Source: Chloroflexia bacterium (GTDB lineage Bacteria; Chloroflexota; Chloroflexia; QHBQ01; JADMIH01). Taken from it: a stretch of 6,142 bases of DNA. Every line of letters begins with the position of its first letter. The stretch's first letter is position 1. The translations under genes were made by a program, and so were the position numbers. Below, piece after piece: positions 1 through 6,142 of this stretch. Below the pieces are notes generated by a model. It saw only the letters and a program-made list of their open reading frames with translations. It ran no database searches and was not told where the DNA came from. The DNA lies in the NCBI GenBank assembly GCA_025927935.1, contig JAICKM010000429.1:1-6142 (forward strand), read 5' to 3'.

Positions 1-48
1 CGCTTCCGCGCCCTGGTGGCGCAACTGCTGGAACACGAGGGGCGGTAG
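1..48 (+). CDS. 3' end of an unidentified CDS (partial)
   Basis: An open frame enters from the left edge and reads RFRALVAQLLEHEGR before a TAG at 46-48. It is GC-rich, with G or C in nearly every third position like the later genes, which supports it being a genuine coding tail. Only 15 residues are visible, so no family can be assigned. The DNA after its stop is clearly AT-richer, so this gene probably marks the left edge of the host backbone next to the accessory patch. Confidence 0.45.
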   Translation, partial: RFRALVAQLLEHEGR

Positions 49-98
49 AGATTTGCAGCAGAAGGCCACTGAACTGGAAAGGACTAAGATAACGGGAA

Positions 99-488
99 AT
101 GGAGCCAACGTTGAATAGCTTAGAAGGCAGCCTTTTGACCGCTACTACCTGGACACAAGCAGGCGATCTGATTATTCAAGCGGTAGATGTCAACGAACAT
201 CCAGTTGAGGTTCGGTTTCACAATATCTGCTTTTTCAAGCTAGTCGGGTCTAGGGTGCACGACTGGAACGACAGTAACGAGATCTGGAAGCTACACGAAA
301 TTGCAGACTCACCCCTGTTACGGGAAGTAGTTTCGGAGAATGGCGCTTACTGGCTACAGCAGCAATTTGGTGGCTTCTATAAGCGTGTCACTTCTGTTGA
401 AGATCCACGCCTTCTCCGCCATATCGTCCTGCTTTCCGATTATCTTGATCTTGAGATATTGTGTACCGATTGTCAGATGGCTCTTTGA
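99..488 (+). CDS. hypothetical small protein, possible immunity-type; 3' end lies in an IS end
   Basis: The product is a 129-residue soluble protein that I do not recognise. It has no signal peptide or membrane segment. It is rich in aromatics and acidic residues, with alternating hydrophobic stretches (VEVRFHNICFFKL around 36-48, RHIVLLSDYLDLEILC around 107-122) that suggest a small alpha/beta fold. The pattern, ending in a strand followed by 'YLDLEIL', is like many small proteins found in immunity-gene arrays, but this is only a resemblance. Base composition is AT-richer than the backbone genes. The ATG at 99 is preceded by purine-rich sequence (AAAGGA at 76-81, GGGAA at 94-98). The last codons (GCT CTT TGA) lie inside the left inverted repeat of the ISL3 element that starts at 479, so the natural C-terminus, probably only a few residues longer, has been replaced by IS sequence. 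Confidence 0.6.
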   Translation: MEPTLNSLEGSLLTATTWTQAGDLIIQAVDVNEHPVEVRFHNICFFKLVGSRVHDWNDSNEIWKLHEIADSPLLREVVSENGAYWLQQQFGGFYKRVTSVEDPRLLRHIVLLSDYLDLEILCTDCQMAL

Positions 489-501
489 GGTGGAGTGTGG
501 T
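479..501 (+). repeat. left terminal inverted repeat of the ISL3 element
   Basis: This is a 23-bp repeat beginning GGCTCTTTGAGGTGGAGTG. It is identical to the reverse complement of 1824-1846, and the identity extends to 476 if the outer GAT is counted. It is the transposase-distal end and contains the TGA (486-488) that closes the upstream small gene. Confidence 0.9.
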
Positions 502-504
502 CAG

Positions 505-1686
505 CTAGGTCCCGTCGCACTCCATCAGCACGCGTAGCCGAAAGTGACTATCGTTCGTGAAGCCATAGGCCCGGCGCTTAATCAGCTTAATCTTGTTGTT
601 GCAGCCCTCCACCACTCCGTTGCTGTGGCGCTCCACGAAGTAGTTCAAAATTGGCTCCCACCAGCGCTCCACGAAGGCCGCTAGCTTCGCGAACCCCGCT
701 AGGCCGCACGCCCGCGCCTTTTTCACCCACCACCCCAGCCGGATCGCCGCCGCCTGCCGGCTCGCGGCCTCCTCGTACATCCGCCGCAACCGCTCCTTGA
801 GGTCATAGGCCACTCCCAGCACCGGGTAGAGCTGCCCAGCTGCCCGTACCCACGCTTGATCTTCTGCGGCCAAGTCCACTCCGTTGCGTAGCAGGCGCCC
901 CCGTAACTCTTGCAGTTCCGCCCGTTCCCCCGCCGCGCGGCCCCGCTGTTGGGCGATCCGGGTCTGATTGAGCACGGCGTTGACCTGTTTTTGGACATGG
1001 AATCGATCCCCGGTGCGCCGCGCCTGCGGAAACAGCTCGGCGGCCACGTCGTGGTAGGGTTCCCAGAAGTCGGCCGTCACTTCCGCGACTTGGGCGCGCA
1101 GGTCGTCCGGCCAGTCGGCAAAGTAGGCCCGCACCGTTGCTTTATCACGCGCCGGCAGTTGCTCCAGCACCATCCCGGTCTCGCCGTTCACCACCACCAA
1201 CTTGAAATCGCCCCGGCCTTTGCGGACCGCAATTTCGTCCAGCCCCAGCACGCGCACGGGGGTGGCGGGCGGCCCCACGGGATGCCGGGCCGCCGCGGTG
1301 GCATAGTACAGCCCTTCGACCAATTTGTAGCCCACCCCTTCGCGGCGCGCAACGGCGGCGATACTGGTGTCGCGGCACGCCGCCACGAGCGCGGCCGCAT
1401 AGCGCCGCGTGGTCGTGGCGCGGGGGGCCACAGTGGCCGTCGGTTCTAAAAAGACCGTGCCGCAGGGGCGACAATGTAAGCGCCGCCGGGTGAGGAGCAA
1501 CCAGGTGGGGTGGCCGGCCCAGGCCAAATCGCGGATGCGCCGCCGATGATACTGATGCACGCTCGTGGTCGGCTGGGCACAGATGGGACAGGCCACCGGG
1601 CCGGGGGCGAGCCGACAATGCAGCAGCAGCGTCTGGGTGTGGGCATCACGCTCGATAGCCGTCACTTGTATGCCTGCTAGGTCCAA
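505..1686 (-). CDS. ISL3-family transposase (DDE)
   Basis: This enzyme catalyses cut-and-paste movement of the surrounding IS. From the TTG at 1686 it is 393 residues long. An N-terminal zinc-ribbon-like part has CPIC (33-36) and CRPC (72-75). A helix-turn-helix-like region follows (about 95-130), then the DDE_Tnp_ISL3 catalytic core: D150 in VLGLDEIA, D206 in EVTADFW, the family marker DRFH at 227-230, and E360 in HSNGVVEGCNNKIKLIKRR. All three acidic catalytic residues are present, so it looks functional. The frame stays open upstream to 1794. A strong AAGGAG at 1760-1765 sits 7 nt before an ATC codon at 1752-1750, while TTG 1686 has only a weak ribosome site. The true product may therefore start at 1752 (415 residues), adding an N-terminus whose final FTQVLDLAGIQV looks family-like. 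Transcription from the upstream SUKH gene would run into it. Confidence 0.9.
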   Translation of the reverse strand: MDLAGIQVTAIERDAHTQTLLLHCRLAPGPVACPICAQPTTSVHQYHRRRIRDLAWAGHPTWLLLTRRRLHCRPCGTVFLEPTATVAPRATTTRRYAAALVAACRDTSIAAVARREGVGYKLVEGLYYATAAARHPVGPPATPVRVLGLDEIAVRKGRGDFKLVVVNGETGMVLEQLPARDKATVRAYFADWPDDLRAQVAEVTADFWEPYHDVAAELFPQARRTGDRFHVQKQVNAVLNQTRIAQQRGRAAGERAELQELRGRLLRNGVDLAAEDQAWVRAAGQLYPVLGVAYDLKERLRRMYEEAASRQAAAIRLGWWVKKARACGLAGFAKLAAFVERWWEPILNYFVERHSNGVVEGCNNKIKLIKRRAYGFTNDSHFRLRVLMECDGT

Positions 1687-2164
1687 TACCTGGGTGAAGG
1701 CGGTCGGATCGCCGGGATTGATCCAGGCGGCCGCCTGGGGTATACTTTCGATGTCGGATCTCCTTGGGGTAGGGATTGGTGGTACAATCCGATCTTACCC
1801 AAGTAGGTCCGCCGCTGCAATTCACCACACTCCACCTCAAAGAGCCATCGTTAACAACCGGCATCGGATCTGCTTGCGTGTCAAAGGCGAAAAACTCTCC
1901 ACCACCATTGGATCCAAAGACCAGAAATTCGACTGAGAATTCCGCATAAAGCCTATTTGTATAAATTACGTCCTCCAAATCATATAGCATAATGTAATTG
2001 GGCCCTAGCCATCCTTCCCCTCCATCGGAACGCAGCATAAACTGGACGTAGTCTTCAGGGAACGTCACTCCCAAATCCGTCTGGCCCTTTGCTATTTGCC
2101 CCATCGAAGCGCCCGGCCTCAGCACATCGAGGCAGCGTATAAACTTCCGCAATTTATCGGGCAT
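1646..2164 (-). CDS. SUKH (SMI1/KNR4) family protein, C-terminus replaced by IS sequence
   Basis: Residues 1-106 match the SUKH-1 pattern: an N-terminal helical part, then LGVTFPEDYVQFMLRSDGGE (31-50), a leucine/tyrosine-rich stretch around YDLEDVIYTNRLY (61-73), and LVFGSNGGGEFFAFDT (81-96) followed by PMPVV. SUKH proteins are mainly known as immunity proteins for secreted polymorphic toxins, and some serve other roles. Family members are usually about 140-150 residues, with a last helix ending near a 'F..FL' motif. Here genuine sequence stops at N105/D106, exactly at the IS end (1847). The remaining 66 residues, to the stop at 1646, are a translation of IS DNA in a different frame from the transposase. 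The gene is best read as disrupted, possibly making a nonfunctional chimera. It starts 36 bp after the TPR gene on the same strand, with AAGGG about 11 nt before the ATG. It is AT-richer than the TPR gene. No cognate toxin is visible. Confidence 0.8.
   Translation of the reverse strand: MPDKLRKFIRCLDVLRPGASMGQIAKGQTDLGVTFPEDYVQFMLRSDGGEGWLGPNYIMLYDLEDVIYTNRLYAEFSVEFLVFGSNGGGEFFAFDTQADPMPVVNDGSLRWSVVNCSGGPTWVRSDCTTNPYPKEIRHRKYTPGGRLDQSRRSDRLHPGIGPSRHTSDGYRA
1760..1765 (-). promoter_or_regulatory. Shine-Dalgarno AAGGAG for the transposase, without a standard start codon at the right spacing
   Basis: Read on the - strand, AAGGAG is followed by a 7-nt spacer and then ATC GAA AGT in the transposase frame. 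No ATG, GTG or TTG lies at a suitable distance. Either ATC is used as a rare start, or an ATG was lost and the protein now begins inefficiently at TTG 1686. Confidence 0.5.
1792..1820 (-). promoter_or_regulatory. candidate promoter of the transposase inside the right IS end
   Basis: On the - strand, TTGCAG (1820-1815) and TAAGAT (1797-1792) are separated by exactly 17 bp. The expected start point is 20-30 bp before the AAGGAG ribosome site. It lies just inside the right inverted repeat, a usual position for an IS promoter. The match is good but not perfect, and no experimental support is available. Confidence 0.45.
1824..1846 (-). repeat. right terminal inverted repeat of the ISL3 element
   Basis: This is an exact inverted copy of 479-501 on the transposase-proximal side; including the outer ATC it runs to 1849. 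It is read in frame by the interrupted SUKH gene as DGSLRWSVV, so these residues are IS-derived and not part of the SUKH fold. Confidence 0.9.
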
Positions 2165-2200
2165 TGTCGATCTTACCCTTGAACGGGCATAACAAGCTTA

Positions 2201-3076
2201 TCACCCCCGGCAGGGATCGAACGCCGGGTCCTCCGCCGCGAGGTCGCCAAGATTCGGGTCGAGGGAGATGGCCTCGCCGAGCCATTCGAGCGCCTCCCGG
2301 CAGCGGCCCGCGTGGGCGTAGGCCCAGCCGACGCGGTAGGTCAGTTCGGGGTCGTCGGGCCAAAAGGCCAGGGCGCGCTGGAAGGATTCGACGGCGCCGA
2401 GCGGGTTGCCCGACCGCACGCGGGTGACGCCCAGGTTGTAGAGCGTGTCGGGGCGGCCCGAATCGAGGGCCAGGGCGTGGGTGAAGTCGGCCATGGCGCC
2501 GTTGAGGTCGCCGATGGTGCGGCGGGCCAGGCCGCGATTATTCAGCACGCGCGGCTGGTCGGGTTGCAGCGCGAGCGAGCGGTTGAAGTCGGCCAGGGCG
2601 CCCGGCACGTCTTCGAGCACGGCGCGGGCCAGGCCGCGGTTGTTGAGCGTGGGGATATGGTCGGGGCGCAGATCCAGGGCGCGGGTCAGGTCGGCCAGCG
2701 CGGCAGGCATGTCGCCGATCTCCTGGTAGAACAGGGCGCGGTTGTAGAGCACGTCGGGATCGCGCGGGGCGTGCTGCACGGCATAGGCGAAATCGGCGCC
2801 CGCCTGCTCCACGCGGCCCAACTCGCGCAACACCAGCCCGCGCCGCATGCGTGCGCCCAGATGATCGGGCTGCTGGGCCAGGAGCCCGGTCAGGTCCTGC
2901 AACGCCCCTTCGAGGTTGCCGAGTTCGTGGCGCAAGAAGCCCCGGCCCAGCAGGGCGGCGGGACTCCCCGGCGCCAGTTGCAGGGCGTGGTTAAACTGCT
3001 CCAGCGCGGCGTTCGTATCGCCGTCGCGGACCAGTTGCATCCCGATATTGATATGATCCTGGGCAGTAGGCGCCAT
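2201..3076 (-). CDS. tetratricopeptide repeat (TPR) protein
   Basis: This 291-residue protein is almost entirely TPR. Eight consecutive 34-residue units fill about 6-277, each with the helix-A/helix-B pattern (e.g. LYNRALFYQEIGDMPAALAD at 110-129; units ending ALxLxPDxP), followed by a 14-residue tail, DLAAEDPAFDPCRG. TPR arrays form a superhelical groove for binding other proteins. No enzymatic domain, signal peptide or membrane segment is present, so it is probably a cytoplasmic scaffold or adaptor with an unknown partner. The ATG at 3076 has an excellent GGAGGTG (3087-3081) four bases upstream. It is divergent from the alkyltransferase-like gene and lies upstream of the SUKH gene. The 'DPAFDP' tail is commonly followed in such proteins by roughly ten more residues, so the short end, at the boundary with AT-richer DNA, may have been trimmed. 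Confidence 0.9.
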   Translation of the reverse strand: MAPTAQDHINIGMQLVRDGDTNAALEQFNHALQLAPGSPAALLGRGFLRHELGNLEGALQDLTGLLAQQPDHLGARMRRGLVLRELGRVEQAGADFAYAVQHAPRDPDVLYNRALFYQEIGDMPAALADLTRALDLRPDHIPTLNNRGLARAVLEDVPGALADFNRSLALQPDQPRVLNNRGLARRTIGDLNGAMADFTHALALDSGRPDTLYNLGVTRVRSGNPLGAVESFQRALAFWPDDPELTYRVGWAYAHAGRCREALEWLGEAISLDPNLGDLAAEDPAFDPCRG

Positions 3077-3080
3077 GCGT

Positions 3081-3087
3081 CACCTCC
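3081..3087 (-). promoter_or_regulatory. ribosome binding site GGAGGTG of the TPR gene
   Basis: GGAGGTG on the - strand is followed by ACGC and the ATG at 3076. This fixes the start of the TPR protein and argues for strong translation. Confidence 0.6.
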
Positions 3088-3122
3088 GGGCGCGGGAATC
3101 GAAAACGGCCGGTACACTCCAA

Positions 3123-3151
3123 TTGGACCCCTGGATGGGGTATGCTATAAT
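3123..3151 (+). promoter_or_regulatory. sigma-70-type promoter of the alkyltransferase-like operon
   Basis: TTGGAC (3123-3128) and a perfect TATAAT (3146-3151) are separated by 17 bp, with a TGC just before the -10 (extended -10). Transcription should start near 3158, leaving a leader of about 34 nt with AAAGG (3180-3184) before the ATG at 3192. The -10 lies within a short dyad, GGTAT...ATACC (3140-3155), which could be incidental or a small operator. Confidence 0.75.
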
Positions 3152-3155
3152 ACCA
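3147..3155 (-). promoter_or_regulatory. candidate extended -10 for the divergent TPR gene
   Basis: Read on the - strand, the segment is TGG TATTAT, an extended -10 (TGn plus five of six consensus bases) that almost completely overlaps the + strand TATAAT. No good -35 is found at 16-18 bp; TTGCTA lies 20 bp away. If used, RNA polymerase could not occupy both promoters at once. Confidence 0.3.
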
Positions 3156-3191
3156 CAAGATCCGTACCCTGGTAGCAAGAAAGGCACCGCC

Positions 3192-3773
3192 ATGCAGGCA
3201 CCAGCCATCATTACGCCGCATCTCGGCCCGCCCGCGGAAGTCATCCCCGTCCACTGGGGCCGTCTGGCGACGGCGCTCGGCCCGGTTTATGTCGCCGCCA
3301 CGCCGAACGGCGTGGTCAGCATCGCCTCCAGCGTGGGCACGGATGACCGGTTCGTGGCCGAACTGGACGCCGATCTCGGCCCGCGCGCCCATCTGATCGC
3401 CGGGTCCAGCCCGATCCTCGACGCCGCCCTGGCCGAGTTGGCGGGCTACTTCGCCGGGGAGACGCGCACCTTCGCCATGCCGCTGGATCTGCGACTGGTG
3501 CGCGGAGCGTTCAACCTCCGCGTGCTGGCCGAGTTGCGCACCGTGCCCTGGGGCCACCTGGTCAGCTATAGCGAACTCGCCCGCCGGGTAGGTTCGCCGC
3601 GCGCCGCCCGCGCCGTGGGCAGCGCCTGCGGGCACAACCCGCTGCCGCTGGTCATTCCCTCCCACCGCGTGGTCCACGCCGACGGCACCATCGGCGGCTA
3701 CGGCGCGCCGGGCATCGCCCACAAGCGCGCGCTGCTGGCAATCGAGGGCGTCGTCTTCCCGGTCACACCCTGA
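3192..3773 (+). CDS. Ogt/MGMT-like O6-alkylguanine-DNA alkyltransferase with catalytic Cys replaced by Ser
   Basis: The protein has 193 residues, the full length of an Ogt-type enzyme. Residues about 18-100 form the N-terminal RNase H-like domain, and 105-190 the DNA-binding, catalytic domain. Family features are clear: FNLRVLAELRTVPWGHLVSY (107-126) with Y127 next, the helix-turn-helix and arginine-finger segment SPRAARAVGSA (R140), the asparagine hinge N149 in HNPLPLVI, then the active-site motif, HRVVHADGTIGGYG, and E185. The motif reads I-P-S-H-R (155-159; codons CCC TCC CAC CGC), not the usual PCHR. Normal enzymes accept the alkyl group on that Cys in a suicide reaction. With Ser this transfer should be lost, while base flipping and damage binding may remain, as in alkyltransferase-like (ATL) proteins, which recruit nucleotide excision repair. 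Known ATLs are usually short single-domain proteins, so a full-length version is unusual. C146 cannot obviously substitute. The ATG at 3192 is chosen for its ribosome site and promoter. The gene leads a two-gene operon. Confidence 0.9.
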   Translation: MQAPAIITPHLGPPAEVIPVHWGRLATALGPVYVAATPNGVVSIASSVGTDDRFVAELDADLGPRAHLIAGSSPILDAALAELAGYFAGETRTFAMPLDLRLVRGAFNLRVLAELRTVPWGHLVSYSELARRVGSPRAARAVGSACGHNPLPLVIPSHRVVHADGTIGGYGAPGIAHKRALLAIEGVVFPVTP

Positions 3774-3797
3774 CCGGCGCTCGCCAAAGGATCCGCT

Positions 3798-4529
3798 ATG
3801 ACCCATCCCCTGCGTATCGGCCTGATCGGCGATTATAGCCCGGAGGTCGTGGCCCACGTGGCGATCCCGCGGGCGTTGGCCCTTGCCGCCACGACCGCGG
3901 GCGTGCCGGTGGCGCCGGTCTGGCTGGCGACCGACCGCCTGGAACAGGACGGCGCCGATCTGCTGGCCGCGTGCGACGCGCTCTGGTGCGTGCCGGGCAG
4001 CCCCTACGCCGGCATGGACGGCGCGCTGGCGGCGATCCGCTTCGCGCGGGAGCGCCGGGTGCCGTTCCTGGGCACCTGCGGCGGCTTCCAGCACGCGCTT
4101 ATCGAATACGCCCGCGACGCGCTGGGCCTCACCGCCGCGGACCATGCCGAGTCAAACCCGGCTGCCGCCCTGCCGCTGATCGGGCCGCTGGCCTGTGCGT
4201 TGCGCGGGGTGACGGGCGGCATCACCTTCACGCCGGGGTCGCGCATCGCCGCGATTTACGGCGGCACGGCGGCGGAAGAAGCGTACAATTGCAGCTTCGG
4301 CGTGAACCCGCAATACGCGCATTTGCTGGACGGCACGGATCTGCGCATCACCGGGCGGGACGCGAACGGTGAAGTGCGCGTTGTGGAACTGACCGGCCAC
4401 CCGTTCTTCATCGCCACGCTGTACCAGCCGGAGCGGCGGGCATTGACCGGCGTGGCCCACCCGCTGGTCAATGCCCTGGTGCATGCCGCAGTGGCGCAAT
4501 CCGCACAGGCGGGATCGCCCGTTTCCTAA
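3798..4529 (+). CDS. class I glutamine amidotransferase-like protein related to the CTP synthase C-terminal region
   Basis: The 243-residue product is a single GATase-1-like domain with no synthetase part, resembling the protein group named 'CTP synthase C-terminal region-related (seleno)protein'. It begins with a flavodoxin-like strand, LRIGLIGDYSP (5-15). The oxyanion-strand region VPGSPYAGMDGALAAIR (65-81) follows, then the nucleophile elbow FLGTCGGFQHALIEYA (90-105) with C94 (ordinary TGC codon). Near the end is GHPFFIATLYQPE (200-212). In CTP synthase the equivalent reads F-H-P-E, whose His completes the Cys-His-Glu triad; here it is Gln (Q210), with E212 kept. Normal glutaminase activity is therefore doubtful and the substrate unknown. 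There is no partner synthetase in the window. It starts 24 bp after the alkyltransferase-like gene, with AAAGGA (3786-3791) six bases before the ATG, so the two are very likely cotranscribed. Confidence 0.85.
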   Translation: MTHPLRIGLIGDYSPEVVAHVAIPRALALAATTAGVPVAPVWLATDRLEQDGADLLAACDALWCVPGSPYAGMDGALAAIRFARERRVPFLGTCGGFQHALIEYARDALGLTAADHAESNPAAALPLIGPLACALRGVTGGITFTPGSRIAAIYGGTAAEEAYNCSFGVNPQYAHLLDGTDLRITGRDANGEVRVVELTGHPFFIATLYQPERRALTGVAHPLVNALVHAAVAQSAQAGSPVS

Positions 4530-4573
4530 ACGTGGCTGCGCCGTTTTCGCGGGTGTTGCGATAGTCAGATCAC

Positions 4574-4594
4574 GGGCCGGTTGCAAACCGGCCC
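4574..4594. repeat. perfect 9-bp-stem hairpin, copy 1
   Basis: GGGCCGGTT, loop GCA, AACCGGCCC, then CCTACAG. It lies 44 bp after the amidotransferase-like stop and could stabilise or end the operon mRNA. It lacks a T-run, so it is more likely a REP-type dispersed element than an intrinsic terminator. Confidence 0.8.
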
Positions 4595-4638
4595 CTACAG
4601 CGCCCGATGCTCCGCCCGAGACGTGTCAGGTGGAGCAC

Positions 4639-4659
4639 GGGCCGGTTGCAAACCGGCCC
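4639..4659. repeat. perfect 9-bp-stem hairpin, copy 2
   Basis: This is an exact copy of the hairpin at 4574-4594, offset by 65 bp, with the same CCTACAGCGCC following it. Confidence 0.8.
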
Positions 4660-4688
4660 CTACAGCGCCGGGTGCGCCGCCAGAGACG

Positions 4689-4763
4689 TGTCACTCTGAG
4701 CGCAGCGAAGAGTCTCGTCTCGTTTGCGATAAGACAAGATGCTTCACTGTGCTCAGCATGACA
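4689..4763. repeat. 75-bp imperfect palindrome, MITE/REP-like
   Basis: The 32-bp left arm (4689-4720, beginning TGTCACTCTGAGCGCAGCG) pairs with the right arm (4732-4763, ending GCTCAGCATGACA) with about seven mismatches around an 11-nt loop. Elements of the form 'TCA-TCTGAGCG-AGCGAAGA' facing an inverted copy are scattered in many GC-rich bacterial genomes and look like non-autonomous mobile or REP-like sequences. No target duplication is evident. Confidence 0.7.
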
Positions 4764-4815
4764 TAGGAAGGGGCCGGCGCGGGCAGGGTTGCTATAGCGC
4801 GGCCCGCCTAATGCT

Positions 4816-4821
4816 TATACT
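4816..4821 (+). promoter_or_regulatory. candidate -10 (TATACT) for the transporter gene
   Basis: TATACT at 4816-4821 lies about 50 bp before the ATG, with a TG shortly upstream. The best -35-like hexamer, TTGCTA (4789-4794), is 21 bp away, too far for a classical promoter, so this is a weak call. Confidence 0.25.
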
Positions 4822-4874
4822 GGAGCAGCCACGCATCGGATTCATCGATTTTATCGCAGAGGTATTCGCAGATC

Positions 4875-6142
4875 ATGGCTACCGTTGAAACCAATCCACC
4901 GCCCGTGCACGTCGCCGGGGCGCCGCACCCGCAAACGCATAAGGGCCTGATCATCTTCGCCGTCATGCTGACCACGGCGCTGTCGGCGCTGGACGCCAAT
5001 ATCGTGGGCACGGCCATTCCGAGCATCGTGGGCGCGTTGCGCGGGATCGGCTTGCTGCCCTGGCTGGTCACGGCCTTCATGCTCACCTCGACCGTGAGCG
5101 TGCCGCTGTACGGCAAACTGGCCGACCTCTACGGGCGCAAGCCGGTGCTGCTGGCCGGGGTGACGCTCTTCCTGGCCGGGTCCGCGCTCTGCGGCGTGGC
5201 CGGGTCGATGGAGCAACTGATTGCCTTCCGGGCGTTGCAGGGGCTGGGTGCGGGTAGCGTGGTCCCGGTGACGCTGACGCTCATTGGCGATCTGTTCGAA
5301 ATGGAGGAGCGCGCCCGGCTGCAAGGGCTGTTCAGCGCAGTCTGGGGCGTGTCGAGCGTGCTGGGGCCGCTGGTGGGCGGGTTCATCGTCACGGTGTGGA
5401 GCTGGCCCTGGGTGTTCCTGGTCAATGTGCCGGTGGGCATCCTGGCGATGGGCATCCTGGCGGTCTATCTGCGCGAACCCGTGCGCAGCCGGACCCGGCG
5501 GCCCTCGCTCGACCTGCTGGGCGCGGCGACGCTGACCGGCGGGCTGACCGCCGCCCTGACCGCGCTCAGCCTGGTGAGTAACGGCGCGGGCTGGGGCAGC
5601 CCGTCCGTGCTGGGGCTGCTGGGGCTGGCCCTGGCGCTGCTGGTGGCCTTTGTCGTCGTGGAGCGCCGCGCCGCCGAGCCGCTGATCCCGCTGGACCTGC
5701 TGACCGCGCCGATCACGCGAGTGTCCATCGCCGCGGGGCTGTTCTCGTCGGGGCTGGTCTTCGGCGGCGGGGCCTACCTGCCCATCCTGGTGCAGGGCGT
5801 GTGGCAGGGTTCGCCGCTGGAAGCCGGGCTGGCCCTGGCCCCGCTGTCGATTGGCTGGCCGCTTGCCAGCACGGTGGCCGGGCGGGCCATCCTGCGCTGG
5901 GGCTACCGGCCCGTGGCGCTGGTGGGCGCCGTCTTGATCGCGGTGGGCGGGTTGCTGTTGCTGCCGCTGGGGCCGGGCGGGCCGATCTGGCTCCTGCCGG
6001 CGGCGATGTTTGTGCAGGGCCTGGGCTGCGGCTTCAACTTCACGACCATGCTCATGGCCGTGCAAAACGCGGCGAGCTGGGAGCGCCGGGGCGCGGCGAC
6101 CAGCCTCTACCAGTTCTCACGCAATATCGGCGGCGTGATCGC
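4875..6142 (+). CDS. MFS drug-efflux transporter, DHA2 (EmrB/QacA) family, 3' partial
   Basis: An inner-membrane proton-driven exporter of the 14-helix DHA2 group; 422 complete codons are visible before the window ends with no stop. A hydrophilic N-terminus (1-23) is followed by TM1 with SALDANIVGTAIPSI (37-51), the family's D1 motif. Motif A is GKLADLYGRKPV (80-91), an FRALQGLGAG segment (118-127) carries the conserved Arg of motif B, and motif C is WGVSSVLGPLVGGFIV (157-172), typical of antiporters. Further hydrophobic segments follow throughout. Full-length relatives are about 470-520 residues, so roughly the last two helices are missing. The ATG at 4875 is the only standard start near the beginning of homology; the frame is open upstream to the TAA at 4809-4811, and a weak GAGG is 12 nt upstream. 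It is separated from the upstream operon by the repeat-filled gap and probably has its own promoter. The substrate cannot be predicted. Confidence 0.92.
   Translation, partial: MATVETNPPPVHVAGAPHPQTHKGLIIFAVMLTTALSALDANIVGTAIPSIVGALRGIGLLPWLVTAFMLTSTVSVPLYGKLADLYGRKPVLLAGVTLFLAGSALCGVAGSMEQLIAFRALQGLGAGSVVPVTLTLIGDLFEMEERARLQGLFSAVWGVSSVLGPLVGGFIVTVWSWPWVFLVNVPVGILAMGILAVYLREPVRSRTRRPSLDLLGAATLTGGLTAALTALSLVSNGAGWGSPSVLGLLGLALALLVAFVVVERRAAEPLIPLDLLTAPITRVSIAAGLFSSGLVFGGGAYLPILVQGVWQGSPLEAGLALAPLSIGWPLASTVAGRAILRWGYRPVALVGAVLIAVGGLLLLPLGPGGPIWLLPAAMFVQGLGCGFNFTTMLMAVQNAASWERRGAATSLYQFSRNIGGVI

Follow-up and report, generated by a model that had tools for sequence, protein, structure and literature searches.

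What becomes of an alkyltransferase in which the single-use acceptor cysteine (Cys) has been replaced? The question is raised by a stretch of 6,142 nucleotides from a Chloroflexia bacterium (contig JAICKM010000429.1 of assembly GCA_025927935.1, positions 1 to 6,142, forward strand; hereafter the window), which holds a full-length homologue of the Ogt/MGMT alkyltransferases with serine (Ser) in place of the catalytic Cys. Two functions could be imagined for such a protein: a repair enzyme that is being lost, or a damage sensor of the kind known from alkyltransferase-like (ATL) proteins. We favour the former, with a probability of roughly 70%: the window Ogt would be a transfer-dead allele in a lineage that is losing the activity, probably still able to bind DNA, rather than a specialised sensor.

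A full-length Ogt homologue with Ser at the acceptor position

The features of the gene are as follows.

3192..3773, plus strand: full-length Ogt/MGMT homologue, 193 amino acids, catalytic Cys replaced by Ser157 (sequence, domain search, structure model)
3660..3662, plus strand: codon TCC, Ser157 in PSHR; Cys in 117/119 listed proteins covering the motif
3243..3491, plus strand: N-terminal (ribonuclease-like) domain, about residues 18-100 (structure model; below the PF02870 threshold of Pfam)
3567..3569, plus strand: Tyr126, counterpart of the conserved active-site Tyr (alignment)
3609..3611, plus strand: Arg140, the Arg finger (alignment)
3636..3638, plus strand: Asn149, the Asn hinge, kept (alignment; ATL proteins are without it according to PMC10779285)
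3720..3722, plus strand: His177, second residue exclusive to the Ser lineage; Tyr in relative P0003 and in 15/15 other aligned clade relatives
3744..3746, plus strand: Glu185, the conserved Glu (alignment)
3124..3151, plus strand: sigma-70-like promoter upstream of ogt, TGGACC, 16 nt, TATAAT with TG (consensus match only, 10/12)

The protein has the sequence and the two-domain fold of an Ogt/MGMT alkyltransferase (PF01035 with N-terminal domain), and the acceptor Cys of the PCHR motif is absent, the motif reading PSHR. The substitution described by a sequence-only reading of this DNA was thus confirmed, as were the kept Arg finger (R140), Asn hinge (N149), Tyr and Glu (E185), except that the Tyr is residue 126 and not 127. 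The structure model shows the full two-domain Ogt fold, with residues 18-100 aligning with the N-terminal domain of solved Ogt structures, in agreement with the earlier view that the fold and the DNA-binding residues are retained. In its two-domain fold, Arg finger, Tyr, Asn hinge, Glu and HRV the window Ogt resembles bacterial Ogt and Ada C-terminal alkyltransferases (PF01035; Mycobacterium OGT, 4bhb; E. coli Ada, 1sfe), whereas these have the acceptor Cys where the window Ogt has Ser.

Full-length enzymes carrying Ser for Cys in this motif have been engineered (human C145S; Sulfurisphaera tokodaii OGT C120S, 7csm/7e1p), while the window Ogt is a natural allele. In PMC4150771, human C145S is described as having undetectable alkyl transfer and DNA binding that is >95% active, and the entry titles for the archaeal OGT C120S variants describe structures solved alone and with O6-methyldeoxyguanosine (7e1p, 7dqq). 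By analogy with human C145S, suicide alkyl transfer should be lost in the window Ogt, as had been predicted. We propose that a recent change swapped the single-use alkyl-acceptor Cys for Ser in an otherwise ordinary full-length Chloroflexia-type Ogt. The product would still bind DNA and would probably flip O6-alkylguanine into its pocket, and it would be unable to accept the alkyl group, so that no direct repair would follow. Most likely the lineage has already given up Ogt activity or is in the course of doing so, and another repair gene may cover for it.

Ser is confined to a narrow lineage

A search of 5.8 billion proteins returned 600 matches. The listed best 120, with the window protein added (121 in total) and two fragments that end short of the motif (P0019 and P0020) left out, gave 119 proteins in which position 157 could be counted. 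Ser was present in 2 of the 119, namely the window Ogt and P0002, and Cys in the other 117. P0002 is a metagenome protein that is 98% identical to the window Ogt, from which it differs at four residues (39, 51, 80 and 117), and P0003 is 90% identical and has Cys; both are representatives of JGI clusters (of 13 and 17, respectively), and the count takes in the residue of the representative. A tree built from 40 of the 119 proteins places the window Ogt and P0002 in one clade (100/97) with P0003 as its sister (100/99); the simplest account is then that the Cys was lost once this lineage had diverged from P0003. Named members of the window Ogt clade are Chloroflexia/Chloroflexota metagenome-assembled genomes (MAGs). 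Among the 18 aligned clade members, Ser157 and His177 are common to the window Ogt and P0002 and occur in 0/16 others; since the two share His177, they form a real lineage. These comparisons indicate that the Cys-to-Ser change is recent and restricted to one narrow lineage. The sequence-only reading had proposed looking for conservation of PSHR in a clade and had regarded PCHR in all near relatives as the mark of an isolated mutation or error; no broad Ser clade was found, and PCHR is what all listed motif-covering relatives but one (P0002) have.

A genome scan with the clade alignment yielded 31 loci, 28 with Cys, 2 with Val (both Microbacterium) and 1 with Tyr, with Ser at the catalytic position in 0/31 and, judged by record titles, no Chloroflexota locus among them. 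The motif-region protein search gave 23 matches (P0002 with Ser, P0003 with Cys, P0134 with Val and 20 others with Cys); with 27 candidates scored, it says little about Ser elsewhere. No relatives were found in viral contigs, where there were 7 pattern matches only, and all 407 records of a plasmid tblastn search were <60% identical to the window Ogt. The Tyr locus of the genome scan (L014, around 10001-10363), in an Actinomycetota MAG, encodes an Ogt homologue with PYHR and is another Cys-less case.

We also compared the Ser branch with the other 15 clade members. Two of its changes fall at sites conserved in 15/15 (C157S and Y177H), a third, L103V, at a site that is Leu in 13 and Met in 2, and a fourth, G166T, at a site that is Gly in 14/15. 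The sister branch (P0003) has itself altered two conserved sites, V187I (15/15) and R137S (14/15). Relaxed selection on the Ser branch was rejected as a firm claim, the numbers being too small given these two changes in the sister.

Several points weigh against the view of a transfer-dead allele in a lineage losing Ogt activity. Relaxation may explain L103V, G166T and Y177H, but so may adaptation to a new role. The frame of the window ogt is intact and its codon-position GC content (GC3) is normal, whereas a decaying gene would be expected in time to lose both, together with the promoter-like site. Finally, the proposed loss of repair is read from this one gene of the genome. Taken as a whole, we regard the window Ogt as a natural and probably transfer-dead variant that is recent and narrow in distribution.

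Comparison with ATL proteins and alternative explanations

With the ATL proteins Atl1, E. coli ATL (YbaZ) and Thermus TTHA1564, the window Ogt shares natural loss of the acceptor Cys and retention of DNA-binding residues. TTHA1564 has Ala at the acceptor position. PMC7216122 gives its annotation as an ATL. As characterised in section 3.5 of PMC10779285, ATL proteins have lost the Cys (mostly to Trp), are without the N-terminal domain, have lost the Asn hinge and carry a C-terminal extension. The window Ogt lacks the acceptor Cys (Ser157) as they do, but its N-terminal domain is present (residues 18-100), N149 is kept, and there is no C-terminal extension loop: residues 3-93 of Atl1 (3gx4, 108 residues) align to residues 104-193 of the model, where the window protein ends. 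Nor is the Cys loss clade-wide, Ser being found in two near-identical sequences among the 119 listed proteins and Cys in the sister. The window Ogt is therefore no member of the ATL family, though it may act as a non-repairing binder. Titles and abstract starts among the open-access PMC matches listed made no mention of a natural full-length Ogt with Ser or Val, which is weak evidence that such proteins are unpublished.

The alternative that fares best is a full-length lesion sensor, kept by selection because it binds O6-alkylguanine, leaves it unrepaired and passes it to excision repair in the manner of Atl1 and E. coli ATL; we consider it unlikely. It would account for the loss of the transfer Cys while other conserved residues were kept and for the persistence of at least two distinct Ser sequences (P0002 represents a cluster of 13, residue 157 being known for the representative), and a Cys-less two-domain Ogt homologue can indeed be fixed and kept, as in Microbacterium (115/115 places; see below). 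Set against this are the retained Asn hinge and N-terminal domain, the narrow distribution of Ser, and the window neighbours with assigned families, among which there is no repair gene. An inactive binder can also be harmful: with the inactive human C145A enzyme, E. coli exposed to an alkylating agent reportedly suffered more killing and mutation (Edara 1999). The ATL-type adaptor put forward from the sequence thus found no support here. A sensor role kept by selection is conceivable but unsupported; should the Ser form have one, it would show the origin of ATL proteins from Ogt.

A sequencing or assembly error at codon 157 is more improbable still. Ser (TCC) is one base from Cys (TGC), and the window and P0002 might share one sampling effort; yet P0002 also has Ser while differing from the window Ogt at four other residues, and His177 too is exclusive to this pair, and because two non-identical sequences share both Ser157 and His177, an isolated base error is unlikely. 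Of the earlier caution that a recent mutation or an error must be excluded, the recent change stands and the simple base error is unlikely. That Ser157 is itself the alkyl acceptor, or supports other chemistry, is scarcely credible: the site retains its His, Arg and Glu, and Ser serves as nucleophile in other enzymes, but human C145S has no detectable transfer and the archaeal Cys120Ser variants were solved with O6-methyldeoxyguanosine, as described above.

A Cys-less Ogt homologue in Microbacterium

The motif search had returned P0134 (Microbacterium kribbense), a two-domain protein with PVHR, and the genus was reached via locus L003 (Microbacterium oryzae) of the genome scan.

P0134; loci L032, L033, L036-L064, L105-L188, Microbacterium genomes: Cys-less Ogt homologue
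Loci L093-L104, L032, L033, L036-L064, Microbacterium: helicase-nuclease neighbour

An Ogt homologue was matched in 119/119 Microbacterium genomes searched, and the best place was read in 115 of them, the other four (G042, G045, G058 and G112) being left out for weak matches (best E 5.9e-14 to 5.2e-11). Across the 115 places, the catalytic position is Val in 98, Ala in 17 and Cys in 0, and the hinge position is Thr in 95, Ser in 19, Cys in 1 and Asn in 0, while the Tyr, Arg finger, His, Arg and Glu are present in 115/115. The match starts at query residue 8 or earlier in 110/115; it starts only from residue 52 or later in the other five (G005, G023, G093, G094 and G105), so that 'full-length' holds for most of these homologues and not for all. 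Stops lie inside the match in five best places (G005, G027, G044, G063 and G099), and some copies may therefore be broken. Second homologues, read in a chosen part of those listed, have PCHR in 16/16 cases from 15 of the 115 genomes, and L034 (G004) and L035 (G003) also have PCHR. In a sample of the family, 66/150 genomes were matched at 1e-20, and the 30 loci read have Val in G003 and G038 (both in the genus set) and Cys in the other 28. Among the best 120 of 6,470 proteins from a profile search, 101 have Val and 19 Ala, the hinge is Thr in 119 and Ser in 1, and all source organisms named are Microbacterium. Sources also name the homologue cysteine methyltransferase among the matches listed.

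The pairwise ratio of nonsynonymous to synonymous substitution rates (dN/dS, NG86) over 5,166 Microbacterium pairs with dS of 0.1-1.0 had a median of 0.47 (range 0.04 to 0.93; 39% >0.5), and the twelve pairs of lowest dS gave between 0.04 and 0.42; these values suggest moderate purifying selection, to be read with caution because the pairs are not independent. Like the window Ogt, the Microbacterium PVHR/PAHR proteins are two-domain, natural and Cys-less and keep the Arg finger, Tyr, HR and Glu; unlike it, they are nearly genus-wide, have Val or Ala rather than Ser and a hinge of Thr, Ser or Cys, and are accompanied by Cys paralogues where a second match was read. The Microbacterium homologue fits the idea of a full-length ATL far better than the window Ogt and is a candidate for a 'long ATL' class. 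It is conceivable, though improbable, that this is a general route by which full-length alkyltransferases turn into 'long ATL' lesion sensors, giving up the acceptor Cys without losing the fold; Microbacterium would then be a mature case that has lost both Cys and Asn hinge and the Chloroflexia Ser lineage a very young one with the hinge still unchanged.

At 31/31 genus loci whose flanks were examined, the Cys-less gene has as its neighbour a gene for a helicase of ~1,240 amino acids with a Vsr-like (MTES_1575) nuclease domain; none of the 28 Cys loci read in the family has this neighbour in its 1.5-kb flanks. In G046 the two genes stand apart, and in G060 and G106 they are on separate contigs. 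The helicase-nuclease has partial likeness, under NCBIfam cut-offs, to the anti-phage proteins Hhe/ProA. Its gene is present in 118/119 genus genomes and in 148/150 family genomes; it is therefore a family-wide gene and no dedicated partner, and a genus-specific two-gene module was rejected.

Other features of the window

476-1849: ISL3-family element with 26-bp perfect inverted repeats; the transposase matches its family over nearly full length
3798-4529: CTP-synthase-C-terminal-like (seleno)protein of class-I glutamine amidotransferase type, directly after ogt (NF004836, 314 bits)
4568-4693: two 61-nt direct repeats, 92% alike, each with hairpin-forming GGGCCGGTTGCAAACCGGCCC; intergenic, before the MFS gene

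The window neighbours with assigned families are a TPR protein, the CTP-synthase-like glutamine amidotransferase, an MFS transporter, the ISL3 transposase and a SUKH protein. No target duplication is visible at the ISL3 element, the flanking 8-mers being different, and the element appears to truncate the end of the minus-strand SUKH (SMI1/KNR4) gene. The glutamine amidotransferase-type gene has Cys in its GTCGG motif.
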